Source of the DNA: Bacillota bacterium
GTDB lineage: Bacteria > Bacillota > Sulfobacillia > Sulfobacillales > Sulfobacillaceae
Assembly (NCBI GenBank): GCA_023511625.1
Contig: JAIMBD010000002.1
Location: 186,001 to 250,000 of the forward strand
Reading direction: 5' to 3'
DNA: 64,000 bases
The notes beneath the pieces were generated by a model. The model was not told the DNA's origin. It ran no database searches and was given only the letters and a program-made list of their open reading frames with translations. Within the stretch, counting starts at the first letter, position 1, and each line of letters opens with the position of its first letter. The position numbers and the translations under genes are program-made. Of the stretch, positions 2,202 through 18,193 are shown in pieces.

Positions 2202-5200
2202 TTAATGCACCGCCCGCTGGCCAAGCCAGTGGTTCAGCGAGTGGACCGAAAACGTTGCCTGTTGGCGCTGGCGTAAGGCAGTCAGGGCCGCCCGCAAGGT
2301 ATCCAGCGAGGTGAAGCAGGGAACGCCGCGCTCCACGGCCGCCCGGCGAATGAGAAAGCCCTCGCGCTCTTGGTCTCCCCCCACCGTGATGGTGTTGACC
2401 ACCAGATCAAAGGTGCCCTGGCGAATCAAATCCACCAGGTGGGGCCGCGTCTCTCCCAGGCGCCGGACGGGAGTGGCCGGGATGCCGGCCAAGGACAGCC
2501 GGGCCAAGGTCCCATAGGTCGCGAACAGTCGATAGCCGAGTTCGACTAACTCCTTGAGCAGCGGCACCGCCTCCTCCTTGTCGGCGTCGGCGATGGTGGC
2601 CAGGATGGCCCCCCCTGCCGGCAGGCGAAAGCCGCCGGCCAGCAGTGCCTTGTACAGCGCCGTGGGATAGTCGCGATCGATCCCCATGGCCTCGCCCGTC
2701 GACTTCATCTCCGGACCGAGCGCGGCATCCACCCGGTCCAGCTTGCCGAAGGAGAAGACGGGCATCTTCACGGCGTAGTGAGCAGGCGGTGGCAGCAAAC
2801 CGTACCCGTAGCGATCGGAAAGACGCCCTTCCAAAATGGCCTCGATGGCGAGCTCGACCAACGGCACGCCGGTGGCCTTGACCACAAAGGGAACCGTGCG
2901 GCTCGAACGCGGGTTGGCCTCGATGACGTACAGTTGCCCCCCCTGCGCCACAAATTGGACGTTGAGAAAGCCGCGAACCTTTAGCGCACGGCACAACACC
3001 TCGGTGTAGCGCACCGCCTCCGCCACCAAGGCTGGATCGGCCCGGCGGGCCGGCAACACCGCCAGCGAATCGCCGGAATGCACCCCTGCGCGCTCCACAT
3101 GCTCCATGACGGCGGGGATGATCACCCGCTCACCGTCGGAAACCGCGTCGACCTCCATCTCCAGTCCATTCACATACCGATCCAGGAGCAGCGGCTGGCT
3201 CGGCCCGATTTCTGTCAACCGCTCGAGATAACGTACCAGTTGCGCCTCGTCCTCGATGATTTCCATGGCCCGGCCCCCCAGCACGAACGACGGCCGCACC
3301 AGAACCGGGTAACCAATCGAAGCGGCTACGGCCAACGCCTCATCGGCCGTCGTGGCGGTGCCGCCGGGCGGGCGGCGCAGGCCATGCCGCTCTAACAGGG
3401 CGTCGAATCGGCGGCGGTCTTCGGCCGTCCGCACCCCCTCGTAGTCGGTGCCCAGAATCGGCACGCCATGGTGCACCAGTCCCTCGGCCAGATTGATGGC
3501 GGTCTGCCCGCCGAACTGCACCAACACCCCGCGCGGGCGCTCATGTTCCACAACGTTCAACACGTCCTCCAGCGTCAGGGGATCAAAGAACAGCCGGTCG
3601 GAGGCATTAAAGTCGGTCGACACCGTCTCTGGGTTACTGTTGATGATCATGGCGCGGACTCCGCGACGCCTCAGGGCGTCGAGCGCCCACACCGTGGCGG
3701 CATCAAACTCGATGCCCTGGCCGATGCGAATCGGCCCCGACCCCAAAACCAGGACCTTGTCCCCAGCCAGCGGCTCGGCCTCGTTCTCTCGCTCGTAGGT
3801 GGCATAGTAGTAGGGAGTGGCAGCGGGAAACTCCCCGGCACACGTATCCACCATCTTGTAAACCGGCGCGACCCCGAGCTCCCGGCGGATCCGCCGGATC
3901 TCGGCTTCCGGCACCCGCGCCAGTTCCGCGATGCGCGCATCTGCCACGCCCGCCGCTTTGAGTTCCGGCAAAAGCTCCCTCCAGCGTTGGGGTTCGTTTT
4001 CCAGCGCGCGATCCAGCGCTGCCATGCGCGCGATCTCGCCGAGAAACCAGCGGTCGATGTGGGTGGCTTGATGCAGCTCATCTAAATCCATTCCTCGGCG
4101 GATGGCCTCGGCCAGGTAGAAGAGGCGGTCGTCGGTCGCCGTCGCCGCCCGCTCGAAAACCTCTTGATCCGAGACCTGGGCCGGGATGATGCCGAAGAGC
4201 GCATGCCGCTTGACCTCCAAGGAGCGGACGGCCTTGTTGAGCGCCCCGACGAAGGTGCGGTCGATGGCCATCACCTCGCCGGTGGCCTTCATCTGGGTCC
4301 CCAGCCGTCGATTCGCGGTCGGAAACTTATCGAATGGCCACCGGGGGATTTTGACCACCACATAGTCTAGAGCCGGCTCGAAGGCGGCGGTGGTCTTGGC
4401 CGTGACCGGGTTCGGAATCTCTGGCAAAGTCAGGCCCACGGCGATCTTGGCCGCGATCCGGGCGATGGGGTATCCGGTGGCCTTGGATGCCAATGCACTC
4501 GACCGCGAGACCCGGGGATTGACCTCGATGACCCGATACTGCCCGTCCGGGTTAAGCGCGAATTGGACATTGCACCCGCCTTCTACGCCCAGCGCGGAGA
4601 CGATTTCCAACGCCGCCCGCCGCAGCCGGTGGTAGTCGACATCGGTGAGAGTCTGGCTCGGCGCCACCACGATGGAATCGCCAGTGTGCACCCCTACCGG
4701 GTCCAAGTTTTCCATGTTGCACACGGTGATGGCGTTCCCATCTCGGTCTCGCATTACTTCGTATTCGATTTCCTTCCATCCAGCAATAGACTCTTCTACC
4801 AACACCTGTCCGATGGGACTCAGGGAGAGCGCGTGGGCCAAGCGCTCGCGCAGCTCGCGCCGGTTATGGGCGAACCCGCCCCCGCTGCCCCCGAGGGTAT
4901 AGGCCGGGCGCAGGACCACCGGATACCCAATCTCCTCCGCATAGGCCACCCCCTCCTCGACGTCTGTCACCGAGCGGCTTCTCGGGATGGGCTGGCCCAG
5001 TTCCAGCATCAGGCGCCGGAACAACTCGCGGTCCTCTGCCTTCTCGATGGCAGACAAGGGCGTCCCCAACAGCTCCACACCGAGGTCGGTGAGGATGCCG
5101 GCCCGCGCCAGTTCGCTGGCCAGATTGAGTCCGACCTGGCCGCCAAGGGTAGGAAGAATGCCGTCGGGGCGTTCTTTGCCCAACACGTACGCCAAGAAGG

Positions 5201-11016: not shown

Positions 11017-11856
11017 ATGGTCCCTAACGGTGCTGTGGAACGGGTGACGCTGGCCAATGGCGTCACCATGCCTTGCCTCGGCCTCGGCGTCTGGCAGGCT
11101 TCGGACCGCGAGGTCGAGCGGGTGATCCCCCAGGCGGTCGAAATCGGTTACCGCCTCATCGACACCGCGACTTTATACGAAAACGAAGCGGGAGTGGGGC
11201 GCGGGATTCGCGCCGCGGCAGTGCCGCGCGAGGAACTCTTCATCACGACCAAGGTCTGGAACCGAGATCAGGGGTACGAGCGCACCCTGGCCGCGTTTGA
11301 GGCCAGCCGCAAACGGCTCGGGCTCGAGTACATCGACCTTTATCTCATCCATTGGGCCGTCCCCGACCGATATCCGGAAACATGGCGGGCCTTAGAAACG
11401 CTGTATCGCGACGGGGCCGTGCGCGCCGTCGGGGTCTCCAACTTTGTCGTGTCGCACCTCGAGCGGATCCTCCAGGAGTCAGAACTGGTGCCGATGGTCA
11501 ACCAGATCGAGCGCCATCCGTATCATGCCCAGACACCGGTGGTGGCCTTTTGCCAGGCCCACGGCATCCAGGTGGAGGCCTGGGCCCCGTTGATGCGAGG
11601 CGGCCCGCTGTTATCTGACCCGGCCATCGCCACCATCGCCGCACGCCACGGCAAGACGCCGGCCCAAGTGGTGCTACGCTGGCACCTTCAGCACCACGTC
11701 ATTCCCATCCCCAAAACCGTTCGCCCTGAACGCCTGCGCGAAAACCTCGACGTGTTCGACTTCACCTTGAGCGCCGAGGAGATGGCGGCACTCGACCGGC
11801 TGGACCGGGAGCAACAATCGTTTCCGTACGATCCGGTCGCCGTCCGGTTCGGCTGA
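11017..11856 (+). CDS. Aldo/keto reductase
   Basis: The 279-residue NADPH-dependent TIM-barrel oxidoreductase reduces aldehydes and ketones. The catalytic tetrad is visible as D49 and Y54 (DTATLYENE), K79 (TTKVWN) and H112 (LIHWAVPD). The cofactor segment near IPKTVRPERLRENLDVFDF is well conserved. Length matches the 2,5-diketo-gluconate reductase-like branch. The ATG at 11017 has GAGAGGGGAG upstream; an in-frame codon 69 nt earlier is not supported by family alignment. No terminator is obvious before the next promoter at 11879. Confidence 0.92.
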   Translation: MVPNGAVERVTLANGVTMPCLGLGVWQASDREVERVIPQAVEIGYRLIDTATLYENEAGVGRGIRAAAVPREELFITTKVWNRDQGYERTLAAFEASRKRLGLEYIDLYLIHWAVPDRYPETWRALETLYRDGAVRAVGVSNFVVSHLERILQESELVPMVNQIERHPYHAQTPVVAFCQAHGIQVEAWAPLMRGGPLLSDPAIATIAARHGKTPAQVVLRWHLQHHVIPIPKTVRPERLRENLDVFDFTLSAEEMAALDRLDREQQSFPYDPVAVRFG

Positions 11857-11878
11857 TCAAGGGGGCGGGATTGCCGAA

Positions 11879-11940
11879 TTGACACAGATGCCGAACTGGC
11901 TAAACTAGGGTGTAGTGATTCTGAATCCGAATCCATTCAG
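11879..11940 (+). promoter_or_regulatory. Promoter with inverted repeat, upstream of the oxidase-assembly cassette
   Basis: TTGACA (11879-11884), a 16-nt spacer and TAAACT (11901-11906) form a good vegetative promoter. Just after the predicted start of transcription lies CTGAAT (11921-11926), 8 nt, ATTCAG (11935-11940), a perfect inverted repeat. It is placed where a repressor could block elongation or initiation. Confidence 0.65.
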
Positions 11941-11987
11941 CCGTCGGCCGCGGCTCGTCCCCCAGCAGGCAAAGGAGGCGACCTCAG

Positions 11988-13052
11988 GTGCCGCCCATGA
12001 ACATGGTGGCGTATCCGTCCACGCTGGCGCTGGCGTTCTTCTACCGGCTGGTGGGAGGCATCGGCCTCGGCGTCGCCGGGTTGACCTTGGCGTGGTGGGC
12101 GTTTCGGCGGTGGAACCGCTCTACACCGCACGAGCCCGTCACCGGCGATGTGGCCGACCGCGTCACCTGGGGATTGGGCGCACTGTGGCTGCTCGATGGC
12201 CTGTTGCAAATGCAGCCCCTGATGGTCACCCACTTTATCGGCGGCTTTCTCACTCCGTTGGTAAGTGGGCAGCCGCCCTGGCTCCAAGCCGCCATCCGGG
12301 TCGGCATCGCGCTGTGGGCGATCAACCCGGTGGTGTGGAACGCGCTCGCGGCCTGGTTGCAGGTGGGAATCGGACTCGTCCTGCTCTTCGCCCGGGATCC
12401 GGGGTGGCGCCGTGCGGCGCTTTGGATCAGCGTCGGGTGGAGCGCCGTGGTGTGGGTCGCCGGAGAGGCGATGGGCGGAGTCTTTTCCGGCGGATCCTGG
12501 TTTTCTGGCAGCCCAGGGTCGGTCCTGTTCTACGGCCTGCTCGCCGTCTGGGTGTTGGCCTCCCCCGATTGGCGCCGGCGCCGCGGCCAGTCGGCCGTGC
12601 GCTATGGTCTCGGGGGGCTGTGGACCCTCGCCGCCCTCGAGCAAGCCTGGCCAGCCAACGGGTTTTGGGGCCCGGCCCTGTCCCAATACGTCGCCTCCAT
12701 GGCCGCTATGCCGCAGCCCGGCTGGCTCTCGGCGCCGCTCTACGCCTGGGCCCACGTCTTGTCCAGCGCCCCGGCGGCTTGGAACGCGGGGTTGGTCGCC
12801 ATCTTTGCCGCCCTCGGAGGGCTCTGGTTTTTTGCGCCCGACCGCCTCGCCACCTTCTGGGCCACGATGGGCGTCGTCCTTTTGACGTGGTACTTCGGCC
12901 AGGACTGGGGGGTGCTCGGGGGTATGGGCACGGACCCGAATAGCGGCGCCCCGGTGTTGTTAGCCCTCTTCATCTACCCCCTCCTGTCTGCTCGGAAAGT
13001 GCTCGCCTCCTCCCCGTCTCCGTTCGGCGCCGCGCCGCGGGTGCAGCCATGA
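11988..13052 (+). CDS. Polytopic membrane protein with an internal duplication; oxidase-cassette component
   Basis: This 354-residue integral membrane protein has about eight to ten hydrophobic segments. I do not recognise a named family with certainty. The two halves look like repeats: WGLGALWLLDGLLQMQP near 65 parallels YGLGGLWTLAALEQAWP near 205, and the glycine-rich GEAMGGVFSGG near 163 parallels GQDWGVLGGMGTDPNSG near 306. The GTG start is 9 nt after AAAGGAGG. It overlaps the SCO-like gene by 4 nt (ATGA), and CtaG follows, so a role in terminal-oxidase or copper handling is inferred from context. Confidence 0.85.
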   Translation: MPPMNMVAYPSTLALAFFYRLVGGIGLGVAGLTLAWWAFRRWNRSTPHEPVTGDVADRVTWGLGALWLLDGLLQMQPLMVTHFIGGFLTPLVSGQPPWLQAAIRVGIALWAINPVVWNALAAWLQVGIGLVLLFARDPGWRRAALWISVGWSAVVWVAGEAMGGVFSGGSWFSGSPGSVLFYGLLAVWVLASPDWRRRRGQSAVRYGLGGLWTLAALEQAWPANGFWGPALSQYVASMAAMPQPGWLSAPLYAWAHVLSSAPAAWNAGLVAIFAALGGLWFFAPDRLATFWATMGVVLLTWYFGQDWGVLGGMGTDPNSGAPVLLALFIYPLLSARKVLASSPSPFGAAPRVQP

Positions 13053-14716
13053 AACCGCGCACGGCCCGGACCGTGGGCTGGGTGGCGGTGGGCGCAGTCC
13101 TGGCCGCGCTGGGCGTGCGTACAGCCCTTGCTCACAGCCCCTCCCGACAGTTGCCACCAGAGGCCGCGGCCGCGTTGGCCGCAGACGGCATGACGCCACT
13201 CGGAGGTTCTCCGGCGCCAGATTTCCACCTCGTCGATCAGCGCGGTCGACCGGTTGCGCTCGACCAATTTCGCGGCAAGACGGTGATCCTCACCTTTCTC
13301 GACCCAGTCTGCTGGTGGGACTGCCCCCTGCAGGCAGCCGAGATGGCTGGCGTCGACCGCCTCCTCGGCCCGGCCAAAGACCGAGTCGTGTTATTGGCCG
13401 TCGCAGGCAACCCCACCGTCCACAGTTTGGGTGCCATCGCCGCCTTCGACCGCTCTCACCATTTGACGGGGCTGCCGAACTGGATCTTTGCCACCGGATC
13501 CACCACGGCCCTTCAGGCAGTGTGGAAGGCATACGGGTACCAGGTCCGCCCGGCCTTGAACGGGATGGATCCCCACAGCGACCTCTTTTACCTCATCGGC
13601 CCCGACGGCCATCTCGACTACCTCTCCAATCCTGAAGCCAACGCCGGTCTGGTGACGGGAACCAGCGCCCTCCTGGCCGCGTATGCGGCCCGGGTAGGAC
13701 ATTGGGCGCCGCCCCCTCAGGCGGACCTGCCCGCACTGTCGCTCGGCCCGGTTGCGACGGCACCGCCCTTGGGCGGGGTAGGACCCGTGGCCTGGTTGGG
13801 GCCGGGCCCCCAGACGGCCTGGGCCATTGGCAACGTTTCCGCAAACGGCGTCACCTATCAGGTAGCGTTCTACACCCGCGACGGCGGCCGCCATTGGCGC
13901 GATGTAGGACCGCCGGGGCTGTCCAAACGGGGCGGCACGGTCCTCGTGGCCGCAAGTGGAACGGCAGCCTGGGCTGTGGTGCGCCCCTTCGGCTACCAAC
14001 TGGACCCCGCCGTCTTCGCCACGGCCGATGGAGGCCGAAATTGGGCCGGGCCCACCCTCTTGCCGGGTCCGCTCGCCCCGGGAAACCCGCTGGCTGCTGC
14101 CGGCGCTACGGTGGCCTGGGTGGCGAGCGGACAACACCTGTGGCAAACCGAAGATGGAGGGCAGCGTTGGACGGCTCGAGGTCTCTTGCCCGGACCCGCT
14201 GGCCAACCGGTCGACTTGGCCTTCAGCGGGGGGCAGTTGTGGCTGGCAATCGGCAGTCGATTGTGGCGGTGGACACCAGGGCACTGGGCCAACGTCGCGC
14301 TGCCGTCCGCCCCGGGTTCCGGGCCGGTGACCGTTGGCACCCCCTGGCCGGTAAGGGGCGGCTGGGCTACGCCCGTGATCCGTGGCGGTGCGCGCCCCCG
14401 GTTGCAAATCGCAATGGAAAAGGCGGGAACCTGGCAGTGGTCGCGCGCCCTGGATCTGCCCGCCCCCGACCTCGCACTGGTGTCGTTTGCCGATGGGTCG
14501 GTGTTTGCGGTGGGCGCAGCCGGACTCCACCTGGAGGTGTGGCGCTGGAATGGCAGTCCGAGTGGCTGGGTTCCCGTCTCAGGCCCTTGGCCGGGCCGAG
14601 GCCAGCCGACGGCATTGACGGCAAGCGGGAGCAGGTTTTGGCTCACGGTGGCGGATGGCAGCCGCCAGGCGTGGGTATGGAACGGCCGCGCCTGGATTCA
14701 AGCCGCCGTCCCGTAA
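13049..14716 (+). CDS. Exported SCO1/SenC-like redoxin fused to a C-terminal BNR/Ycf48-like beta-propeller
   Basis: The 555-residue protein begins with a signal sequence or anchor (residues 8-28, ALA-HS). Residues about 50-215 form a thioredoxin-fold SCO domain with the copper-binding C88-W-W-D-C92 (CxxxC) and the conserved distal histidine H176 (MDPHSD). From about 230 to the end, repeated blades carry sialidase-like turns (TRDGGRHWRD, TADGGRNWAG, TEDGGQRWTA), as in Ycf48/HCF136-type propellers. SCO proteins deliver copper to the CuA site of cytochrome oxidase; the propeller may act as an assembly scaffold, which is inference. The fusion is unusual. Confidence 0.88.
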   Translation: MKPRTARTVGWVAVGAVLAALGVRTALAHSPSRQLPPEAAAALAADGMTPLGGSPAPDFHLVDQRGRPVALDQFRGKTVILTFLDPVCWWDCPLQAAEMAGVDRLLGPAKDRVVLLAVAGNPTVHSLGAIAAFDRSHHLTGLPNWIFATGSTTALQAVWKAYGYQVRPALNGMDPHSDLFYLIGPDGHLDYLSNPEANAGLVTGTSALLAAYAARVGHWAPPPQADLPALSLGPVATAPPLGGVGPVAWLGPGPQTAWAIGNVSANGVTYQVAFYTRDGGRHWRDVGPPGLSKRGGTVLVAASGTAAWAVVRPFGYQLDPAVFATADGGRNWAGPTLLPGPLAPGNPLAAAGATVAWVASGQHLWQTEDGGQRWTARGLLPGPAGQPVDLAFSGGQLWLAIGSRLWRWTPGHWANVALPSAPGSGPVTVGTPWPVRGGWATPVIRGGARPRLQIAMEKAGTWQWSRALDLPAPDLALVSFADGSVFAVGAAGLHLEVWRWNGSPSGWVPVSGPWPGRGQPTALTASGSRFWLTVADGSRQAWVWNGRAWIQAAVP

Positions 14717-14774
14717 GCAGAAGCAGGCGCACGGCGGCACTTTTCCCCTGCTTGATGGGAAGTGAGGTGAGAGG

Positions 14775-15623
14775 ATGATCCCGTTGAACGCCATCCCCTT
14801 CTGGGCCTGGGCCACCCCTGGGATCCTGGTGGCGGTCGCGGCGGTAGCCGCATTGTATCTTTGGATCCTGGCGGGACCTGGCCACGCCCTGGTGCCACAC
14901 CTTTCCCCGCCGACCCGGCTCCAGGCGGCCGCCTTCCTGGCCGGTTGCTTGTTCCTTTACCTCGCCTTGGGCAGTCCGCTCGGAGTTCTGGCCATGGGCT
15001 ATTCCTTCACGGCCCACATGATCCAGCACGTCCTGGCGGCCTTGGTCGCAGCGCCGTTGCTGTTGGTGGGACTCCCGGCCGACGTGTGGCGGAGCGTCCT
15101 CCGTACCCCCGGGCTTGGCTTTCTCTTCCGCCGCGCCGTGCGCCCGATTCCGGCGCTGGTGGTGTTCAACCTATTCTTCGGGATCTTGGTCTGGCCGCCT
15201 CTCTTAGACGCCATGGTTCGGTCCATGGCCCTGATGTTGACCATGCACCTCATCCTGGTCGTGGTGGCCATCCCCATGTGGTGGCCGCTTTTAAGCCCGC
15301 TGCCGGAACTGCCCCGCTTGCACCCTGGTGTACAGCTGCTCTACATCTTCGCCGACGGTCTGCCGATGCTGTTGCCGTTGGCCCTTGTGGCCCTCGACAC
15401 CCATCCCCTGTACGCCGCGGCCTACCAAGCCGGAGTCCGCGCGATAGGCATGGGCCTGGTGCCTGACCAACAGCTCGGCGGCTCTATCTGCATCGTCTTG
15501 GTCCACGCGCTATACGGTGCCCTCTTCATCGTCCGTTTCCGCCAATGGGCCCGCCTGGAAAGCGGTCGCATCGACGGCGTGCCCCACCTGTCGGTAGTCG
15601 AGCCGCCCGCCAAGCGGCGGTGA
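14775..15623 (+). CDS. ctaG: Cytochrome c oxidase assembly protein CtaG (Caa3-type)
   Basis: The 282-residue protein with about seven membrane segments belongs to the Caa3_CtaG family of Firmicutes, needed for assembly of caa3 oxidase and thought to handle copper. Family hallmarks seen are HMIQHVLAALVAAPLLLVGLP near 75-95, the MHLILVVVAIPMWWPLLSP segment near 155, and PDQQLGGSICI near 235. It lies 58 nt downstream of the SCO-propeller gene and probably belongs to the same operon. It ends 4 nt from the end of the convergent gene with no visible terminator between them. Confidence 0.92.
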   Translation: MIPLNAIPFWAWATPGILVAVAAVAALYLWILAGPGHALVPHLSPPTRLQAAAFLAGCLFLYLALGSPLGVLAMGYSFTAHMIQHVLAALVAAPLLLVGLPADVWRSVLRTPGLGFLFRRAVRPIPALVVFNLFFGILVWPPLLDAMVRSMALMLTMHLILVVVAIPMWWPLLSPLPELPRLHPGVQLLYIFADGLPMLLPLALVALDTHPLYAAAYQAGVRAIGMGLVPDQQLGGSICIVLVHALYGALFIVRFRQWARLESGRIDGVPHLSVVEPPAKRR

Positions 15624-15627
15624 CGCC

Positions 15628-18051
15628 TCACCACATTCCCACAGTCCCCTGTGCCGCATCGAGATCCACGGTATCGGTGATGCCGGTGGGACCAGGCACG
15701 TCTCCGGCGTACTGCCACAGGGTGGCCTCGGGCAGGATTTGGGTAGGGTCTGGGGGAGGCACCTGGACTCCCGCGTAGTTCCATGCAGTGACCCAATACA
15801 ACACGTGGTTTTCGCCCCACGGTTGGCTGGCGATGGTTTGAAGCTGGTGCGGCCCGCTGTACACCCCAGGCAGGTAGCCCTGAGCGGCCACCGCCTCCGT
15901 CCATCCCTCGACGTAACCGAGCCATTGGGTCCCGGTTTGGTACGGCTCAAGGTCAAGATAGATGGCCGTGCCCGGAGGTTGGCCCACCCCTTCAGCCAAT
16001 GCCACGGCCCGCTCCCCATCGACGGTGCCCTGGGCTTGCGTCTGCACCCCACACACCGCTTCCCCGGGCACGCGGTTGGCCCCGCTGTAAAGACTGACCA
16101 ACAGCAGACCGTCGGCCTTGAGGGCCGCGGCTTCGCGCGCCGTCAAAGGCGTACTCCGGTAACAAGGTCCGCCGAGGTAACGGGCGGCGAACCGATAGGG
16201 GGTCCCCGGTCCGATCTGTCCTGCAGCGGCTGCGGGAACCAGCGATTGATCGGCGTCGAGCCCGTTGAGCACCTCCGAAGCGCCCGAAACGCCAGAGGGC
16301 GCCTGGGCGGCATCTGCCGTACCTTGGCACGCCGGCGCCGGCGTCGCTGCCGCGGGCAGGCTCCCCGTCGGCAGGATCCCAGTCAAGGCGTACTGGACCC
16401 AAGCCGCGGCCAGGGCTGCGCTGTCTTGGGCCGTGTTGCCGTTGGCATCCACGAAATACCCCGCCGTGGGCTCAGTCACTCCAAGTGCGCCGGGATAAGG
16501 CGACCCTTGGGCTGGCGTCCCCGTAGACCCGGCGCTCCATCCACACGGGTCATAGGCCAGGGCGTTGGCAGCGGGAGAGCCAATGGCTACCACCACCGCG
16601 GAGCCTTGTTGCATGGCCTGCCAGGCCTGGGCGAACGTAGTCAAAATTTGGTCGGCGGGAATCCCTTCGGCTTGGGCCAGCGCCTTCGCGGTCGCCAGAT
16701 CGGCAGGGCTTGCCGCGTAGAGCGCGATCTGATCCGGCGTCGCCGGATGCGGCGCGTGGACGATGACCGTCGCGGTGGCCGTCAGCCCGGCCACTTGAGC
16801 CGTCACGGTGTAGGTCCCGGATTGGTCCGCCACCACCGCCACCCCCCCGTCCCCCTGGGGCGCCCACGCGACCCACGGGGAGGAGGAAGAGACCGTCCAC
16901 GTCACTGAGGGGGACAACGGCTGGCCCCAGGCGTTGGCAACCTCGGCGCGGGCCGTCCACAACTTCCCCGCTACGGCCGTCGACGCACCCTGCAGGGTAA
17001 GACGGGCCGGCGTCTTAGTCCAAATCTCCGCCACGTCTGCCTGCACCGAGGGCGGCACGGCTTGGCTTTGGCCCACCACTGCCCACCGCATGGGCGAAAA
17101 CGCTTGGGGCTTGCCAAGATACGCCGCAATGGCCCCAGGCAACGGCCCGGTCGAAGGCACCAACACCAGTCCTGCTTGCCAGGCCGCAGCCAGAGGGCCC
17201 GCTACCAAGGCATCGGTGAAGTGGTCGGGGCTGGCGCTGGCCAGCACCACCGCAGACCAAGGTCCGGCGGCAAAATAGGCGTCCAAGGCTACGTTGGTGG
17301 CGTAGCGGTCGGCCCCTGCCAACGGTACCACCCGGCCGGTGGCGGGCAACGGGGTCGCGGCCGCCGCACCGACAAGATACACCGTGGCGCCGGGAGAAAG
17401 CCAGGTCGCCTCGTCCGGGGGCAAGGGCCCGCCCCCCACAGGACGCAACAAAATCGGAGCCTCCGCTTCGGCAGCAAACGGCCCGGCTGCCAGCGCGTCC
17501 ACCAAGTGGTCTTGGGCTCCCGAAGCCACGAACGCCGCCGGGAAGGCGTGGCGCTGGGTCACCGCAGCCAAATAGCCGGCCACTGCCGCCGCTGTGGCAA
17601 ACCGGTCCGGTCCCGAAAGGCGGGCCCGCACTGCCACACCAGGGGGCAGCGCGCCCGAGTTGCCCAAAGACGCGGCGGCACCTACCAGGATGACGTTCTC
17701 CACACCAAGGGATTGCAGGGCCAGAGTGGTGGTGGACCCCAAGACAGTGGGCGATTCCGCCAGCAACAAGGGCGCATGCAACGCCGCCGCCAATGGTCCC
17801 GCCGTCAGGGCGTCGACGGCATGGGCGTCGGTCCCCACTGCCAGCACGGCCGTGCTGGCACCGTGGGGAAACTCCTCGAAAGCCACCTGAGCCGCCGTAG
17901 CAAACCGGTCTGGTCCGGCCAGCACCACCGGGGACGGCGGCCCCGCCGCATGGGCCGCCTCCGGCCCCGCGGCGACGCCAAACAGCACCGCCCCTGCCGC
18001 GAGGACCGCCCCCCATGGGGTCCGGCGCTGCCTGGTCCGACCTTTCCGCAT
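15628..18051 (-). CDS. Exported cell-wall-binding-repeat-2 protein with Ig-like and DUF1906 glycosidase-like domains
   Basis: This 807-residue secreted protein has a twin-arginine-free signal peptide (about 1-35, ending AHA). Three CWB2 repeats follow (about 40-125, 130-220 and 225-320), each with the hallmark GxDRxATA/N and DALVAGPLAA-type segments. Next come an Ig-like domain near 350-430, a linker, and a C-terminal DUF1906 (Rv2525c-like, glycosidase-fold) domain marked by RFAARYLGG, AIYLDLEPY, GVYSGP and WQYAGD. It is likely anchored to wall polymers and acting on peptidoglycan or glycan. The start has GGGAGGGAG upstream. Confidence 0.88.
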   Translation of the reverse strand: MRKGRTRQRRTPWGAVLAAGAVLFGVAAGPEAAHAAGPPSPVVLAGPDRFATAAQVAFEEFPHGASTAVLAVGTDAHAVDALTAGPLAAALHAPLLLAESPTVLGSTTTLALQSLGVENVILVGAAASLGNSGALPPGVAVRARLSGPDRFATAAAVAGYLAAVTQRHAFPAAFVASGAQDHLVDALAAGPFAAEAEAPILLRPVGGGPLPPDEATWLSPGATVYLVGAAAATPLPATGRVVPLAGADRYATNVALDAYFAAGPWSAVVLASASPDHFTDALVAGPLAAAWQAGLVLVPSTGPLPGAIAAYLGKPQAFSPMRWAVVGQSQAVPPSVQADVAEIWTKTPARLTLQGASTAVAGKLWTARAEVANAWGQPLSPSVTWTVSSSSPWVAWAPQGDGGVAVVADQSGTYTVTAQVAGLTATATVIVHAPHPATPDQIALYAASPADLATAKALAQAEGIPADQILTTFAQAWQAMQQGSAVVVAIGSPAANALAYDPCGWSAGSTGTPAQGSPYPGALGVTEPTAGYFVDANGNTAQDSAALAAAWVQYALTGILPTGSLPAAATPAPACQGTADAAQAPSGVSGASEVLNGLDADQSLVPAAAAGQIGPGTPYRFAARYLGGPCYRSTPLTAREAAALKADGLLLVSLYSGANRVPGEAVCGVQTQAQGTVDGERAVALAEGVGQPPGTAIYLDLEPYQTGTQWLGYVEGWTEAVAAQGYLPGVYSGPHQLQTIASQPWGENHVLYWVTAWNYAGVQVPPPDPTQILPEATLWQYAGDVPGPTGITDTVDLDAAQGTVGMW

Positions 18052-18077
18052 CGTTGTCTCCCTCCCGCACTCCGCTT

Positions 18078-18121
18078 GGCGACAACACGCCATCCCCGAC
18101 GGCGAAAACCTGTTCGCCGCC
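18078..18121 (-). other. Two hairpins in the 5' leader of the CWB2 gene
   Basis: On the minus strand a 9-pair hairpin (18121-18098, one G-U pair) is followed by GGCG-6 nt-CGCC (18091-18078). Both lie between the start codon at 18051 and the likely promoter region. No known riboswitch consensus is matched. They could set mRNA stability or regulate translation. Confidence 0.4.
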
Positions 18122-18160
18122 AATTGGGAGCGGAGTATGGCATTGGCAGTCGAGACAACC

Positions 18161-18193
18161 ATTCGACACCGAGGGAGGGAGTTCCTGTCGAAT
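18161..18193. promoter_or_regulatory. Inverted repeat, candidate operator upstream of the CWB2 gene
   Basis: ATTCGACA (18161-18168) and TGTCGAAT (18186-18193) are perfect 8-bp inverted copies whose starts are 25 bp apart. They lie 110-140 nt upstream of the CWB2 start. The spacing of about two and a half helical turns is typical of a dimeric regulator or of a looped pair of half-sites. No convincing -10/-35 pair was found. Confidence 0.4.

Follow-up and report, generated by a model that had tools for sequence, protein, structure and literature searches.

The closest described counterparts of the locus analysed here are the Sco (YpmQ) and Caa3_CtaG (CtaG) genes of Bacillus. CtaG and SCO are adjacent in Bacillus halodurans, and the 2022 review that places them there anticipates further oxidase-assembly proteins that have not yet been identified (PMC9145763); CtaG itself is called poorly understood in a second article (PMC13344008). 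Genes of the same two families are found in a 64,000-nucleotide stretch of a Sulfobacillaceae genome (assembly GCA_023511625.1, contig JAIMBD010000002.1, positions 186,001–250,000), hereafter the window (G000:C8:186001-250000, G000 being the source genome). There they follow the gene of an uncharacterised membrane protein (MP), in a forward-strand cassette of the order MP, SCO-propeller, CtaG. Compared with the Bacillus genes, the cassette adds MP, its SCO protein carries a C-terminal region with Asp-box motifs, and the oxidase lies on another contig. Given the presence of SCO and CtaG, the cassette is probably an oxidase-assembly operon of known kind. I further propose, at evenly balanced confidence, that MP is a docking platform recruited in this operon for SCO, with a caa3 oxidase as the client.

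The SCO-propeller protein passes the PF02630 (SCO1/SenC) threshold, with 42.8 bits against a cut-off of 22.8, and its copper-ligand set is complete, comprising C88WWDC92P (CxxxCP) and the distal His H176. Its C-terminal region holds three Asp-box-like motifs (DGGRHW, DGGRNW and DGGQRW) and is likely a beta-propeller, the matches to BNR, Sortilin and Ycf48 all being sub-threshold; the whole would be a membrane-anchored copper chaperone acting outside the cell. CtaG, of a family known for its part in caa3-oxidase assembly, matches PF09678 (Caa3_CtaG) with 140.2 bits (cut-off 27.7), and scores below the curated cut-off of the NCBIfam equivalog TIGR02737 (128.6 bits against 279), which places it within the broader Pfam family and outside that equivalog. 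MP reaches the cut-off of no Pfam or NCBIfam family, and is by its sequence an internal duplication, its N-terminal half aligning with its C-terminal half at an hhalign probability of 98.8 (E 8e-16). An earlier note on this DNA had described a duplicated membrane protein, an SCO-propeller and CtaG; these identities are borne out, the propeller part at the strength of likely. The same genome also encodes an SCO-like protein (L178, G000:C9, ~3854-4282, reverse strand) that has neither the CxxxC nor the His, possibly a non-copper relative of SCO.

MP was searched for among relatives of the source genome, where it occurs in 51 of 121 genomes, and across an even draw of the phylum, where it occurs in 7 of 398. 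Neighbours were counted for the 86 MP genes among the matches listed in 27 genomes, chosen out of the 51 with MP, and as many as 11 copies are present in a single genome. An SCO gene lies within 3 kb of 17 of the 86, where ~0.4 would be expected by chance, and the two genes share a strand in 17/17 pairs. The MP-linked SCO genes are 13 of 42, and CxxxCP and the His are kept in 14/14 aligned MP-linked SCO domains. CtaG is found within 3 kb of 3/86 MP genes, three rows having been dropped as repeat fragments of CtaG genes that were in the count, and SCO or CtaG within that distance of 18/86. MP stands upstream of SCO in most cases and downstream in a distant clade (G017, G023, G029), and this difference in gene order suggests that the linkage arose more than once. 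In a tree built from 86 MP proteins (not the same 86 as in the neighbour count, and omitting L031, which is on the same contig as L099, and the frame-broken L033), SCO linkage is scattered: the 12 SCO-labelled rows need 6 changes, 6 of them forced by supported branches, and 60 rows have no labelled neighbour. The omitted L033 (7998-8667, Sulfobacillus benefaciens AMDSBA4) is an MP remnant split into frames. Apart from the source genome, only G035 has the exact three-gene cassette, there in fused form; the corresponding contig of G001, a sister genome, breaks off within SCO.

In G035, a single-contig genome, MP and SCO form one frame of 605 amino acids; the genes after it, on the same strand, encode a membrane protein of 183 aa, CtaG and a P-type ATPase that translocates copper (TIGR01511, 460 bits against a cut-off of 397). 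In G017 and G023, too, a copper ATPase is encoded ~1.2 kb downstream of MP; that of G017 is read as two frames of 342 and 480 aa (L153, 8040-10510, forward strand), and is intact in G023 as an 822-aa frame. A second kind of fusion, to a sulfocyanin-like domain, was identified in five genomes (L149, L155, L156, L172, L173), all five domains scoring above the Pfam cut-off and the proteins grouping as a single clade (support 100/100). Ahead of the fused domain, proteins of both fusion types have a hydrophobic helix, which is compatible with a location on the outer side. Type-1 copper ligands serve as the reference for sulfocyanin-like domains; judged against the sulfocyanin-like protein L169, the Cys and two His positions are replaced in 5/5 of the fused domains. 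Since these expected ligands are lost, I rejected this fusion as evidence for copper: it shows MP carrying exported domains, not copper handling. At five loci (L100, L102, L104, L105, L146) a 181-186-aa membrane protein adjoins the MP-SCO genes. It has a conserved GC motif, which includes a Cys and precedes a His, as well as a C-terminal H(G/A)WC, and at best a weak, sub-cut-off match to DUF4153 in one member. This protein may be a further component.

Structure prediction for MP was based on shallow alignments of 4-8 rows. The full-length AlphaFold2 model is weak (pLDDT 57.6, four-row alignment) and shows one N-terminal helix, then two repeats of a helix, two short helices and three helices; a single-repeat model, for which both repeats of MP proteins were used as alignment rows, reached pLDDT 74.7. 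With Foldseek, the chain of NACHO/TMEM35A in 9h9e_B ranked first for the repeat (probability 1.00, TM 0.60/0.66) and second for the whole protein (probability 0.99). VIA-align gave the repeat a Z of 12.0 to the same chain over 116/133 residues, at an rmsd of 2.4 Å, with the next row at 8.3, and the full model a Z of 11.4, with the next row at 8.7. On these models, each MP half likely shares the four-helix fold of NACHO/TMEM35A, an animal receptor-assembly chaperone that, as proposed for MP, acts in assembling a membrane complex. MP differs from it in being bacterial, in its tandem duplication and extra helix, and in its exported partner domains, with 12-14% identity. NACHO, I assume, belongs to the DoxX group, and the N-terminal half of MP matches a DoxX profile weakly, as a four-helix unit, with E 0.0017, compared to 0.38 for reversed DoxX and 0.03 for the best of ten membrane decoys; however, of 17 MP members compared with DoxX-type Pfam models, none gave a match. 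No match was obtained with the MP profile among PDB sequences or by tblastn against plasmids, and a 3-row DoxX/DoxD profile searched against the PDB with E up to 10 returned no NACHO chain, only two unrelated weak matches.

Positive residues of MP cluster at positions 40-44, 136-142, 196-205, 286 and 336-337, and on this basis the conserved motifs (QxQPxM79, GQP96, GE160xxG, GSPGS, MPQP and GQDxGVLGGMGTDP) would face outward. MP would then be a nine-helix membrane protein built of two DoxX/NACHO-like four-helix units, whose outer face holds exported partner domains at the membrane beside the nascent oxidase.

The source genome encodes five copies of COX1, and two of COX2 with one more below cut-off. 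All are on contigs other than that of the window, in agreement with the earlier note's remark that no oxidase subunits are in the window, and none of MP, SCO and CtaG is found within ~8-10 kb on either side of the five COX1 genes. One COX2 (C17:21059, on contig 17) has the CuA motif CAEFCGTGHADM and a C-terminal CxxCH, and is a caa3-type subunit II; the second above-cut-off COX2 has no CuA motif. Because the genome contains only this one CuA oxidase, the cytochrome-c-fused caa3-type enzyme on contig 17 is the likeliest client, which weakens the earlier suggestion of a copper-delivery route usable by several oxidases. Through the tentative role of CtaG at CuB, several oxidases could be served. 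More broadly, 22 of the 27 genomes have a COX2 carrying C...C...H..M, and five do not; CuA was judged from fetched COX2 loci rather than every COX2 row, and for the five CuA-less genomes all 8 listed rows were read. SCO is absent from 8/27 genomes, including all five CuA-less ones (chance 0.0007, ignoring kinship), and a CuA-type COX2 is present in 9/9 genomes with MP-SCO adjacency. SCO therefore tracks CuA, while MP, which persists in the five CuA-less genomes, does not.

I propose a docking platform because MP is repeatedly tied to SCO and fused to two kinds of exported domain. The platform would be reused with different partners, the partner here being SCO, and the locus would be an operon for assembling the copper centres of a respiratory oxidase whose genes lie elsewhere. 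Several observations weigh against this. Neither SCO nor CtaG lies within 3 kb of 68/86 MP genes, and only G000 and G035 have CtaG alongside the MP-SCO pair. MP is present in five genomes (G004, G007, G010, G015, G034) that show the CuA motif in none of their COX2 rows (0/8) and contain neither SCO nor a full CtaG. The fused sulfocyanin-like domains are without three of the four expected copper ligands, and for the fold, the Foldseek E-value of the repeat against 9h9e_B is weak (0.019) and a Z of 12 falls short of the ~13 under which the tool advises caution for helical bundles. Since 68 of the 86 genes stand apart from both SCO and CtaG, and MP persists in five genomes that have neither CuA nor SCO, the MP family is not a dedicated oxidase-assembly factor, and a dedicated SCO/CtaG partnership was rejected. 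The comparison of gene neighbourhoods thus went against the earlier note for the family as a whole. Its idea of a new component survives in part: MP is uncharacterised and linked to SCO far more often than by chance, including one case of fusion and an operon in which CtaG and a copper ATPase are also present.

The same counts, together with the high copy number, are compatible with MP serving the lineage as a general membrane protein in many roles, placed beside SCO by co-regulation only and without a direct role at the copper centre. Neighbours of MP elsewhere include Lgt, ECF sigma factors and dehydrogenases. I consider this explanation unlikely, as the excess of SCO linkage over chance, the shared strand of all pairs, the occurrence of both gene orders and the fusion speak against it. 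COX1 is near MP at L032, L141, L144 and L171; a sigma-70-family (ECF-like) factor, for which Pfam was consulted with one member of the cluster, is near MP at seven loci (L141, L144, L145, L155, L173, L174, L175).

MP could also be a redox partner, drawing on quinol electrons to maintain the cysteines of SCO in reduced form, on what I take to be the model of MauE or DoxD. The resemblance of the MP half-fold to the DoxX group would fit, as would the thioredoxin fold of SCO with its CxxxC. However, MP contains no Cys, and no Cys is conserved above 40% among the 87 aligned members, which leaves no sign of a thiol relay; that role was rejected for MP, and the redox-partner reading is distinctly improbable. 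A copper carrier or transporter passing copper to SCO from outward-facing Met is the least probable of all, for although Met79 (89% of the 87 members) and Met241 (68%) are conserved, Glu160 is invariant, the window protein begins VPPMNM (read MPPMNM from its GTG) and copper ATPases are neighbours in G017, G023 and G035, there is no widely conserved His or Cys among the 87 (one column is 55% His, and Ala in the window protein), and some genomes with MP have neither CuA nor SCO. Of these accounts the docking platform is the simplest.

The features of the locus are collected in the table. On re-reading the coordinates, the layout is that given in the earlier note: the MP stop and SCO start overlap by 4 nt in a common ATGA (13049-13052), and 58 nt separate the SCO stop (14716) from the CtaG ATG (14775). 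The shared promoter that it proposed corresponds to the only promoter-like match within 11500-16200 (shuffled mean 0.3), a consensus match only. The scan of that interval listed no terminator-like site between the genes; one transcript across MP, SCO and CtaG is plausible. An in-frame ATG at 11997 is an alternative start for MP. I rejected the aldo/keto reductase gene upstream as an operon member, the gene 5' of MP in G001 being divergent. Converging on CtaG from the reverse strand, with 4 nt between, is a gene for an 844-aa protein (15628-18162) with repeated 'GPDRFATA' segments, presumably resembling cell-wall-binding-repeat proteins.

Features of the MP, SCO-propeller and CtaG locus (positions in the window)
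Feature	Position	Strand	Description
Promoter-like site	11879..11906	+	TTGACA-16-TAAACT, upstream of the three genes; 10/12 consensus matches
Shine-Dalgarno-like site	11971..11978	+	AAAGGAGG, 9 nt ahead of the GTG start at 11988
MP	11988..13052	+	membrane protein of 354 aa; an N-terminal helix, then two predicted four-helix repeats (~residues 54-200, 201-340)
SCO-propeller	13049..14716	+	N-terminal anchor, SCO domain, then Asp-box-bearing C-terminal region (likely beta-propeller)
CtaG	14775..15623	+	caa3 type, multi-pass; PF09678

The available portions of PMC9145763 and PMC13344008 name no MP-like component. Among the literature matches listed, there was none on such a component, which does not imply its absence from print, none on an SCO-propeller protein (SenC with propeller or BNR), and nothing relevant on DoxX with MauE or thioredoxin; searches joining DoxX with TMEM35A or with NACHO found nothing.

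A more far-reaching version, which I regard as a long shot, is that MP, SCO and CtaG, joined in G035 by the copper-exporting ATPase, make up a single hand-over complex bound to the membrane, its tandem NACHO-fold scaffold linking the export of copper with CuA loading. If true, the same four-helix chaperone fold would assemble multi-subunit membrane proteins in both bacteria and animals. Assembly of the CuA and CuB centres of oxidases is poorly understood in gram-positive bacteria, and the MP family, given its repeated linkage to SCO and one fusion, is a concrete candidate for a component of this process. The fold match raises the question of whether MP acts as a chaperone scaffold or as a redox enzyme.

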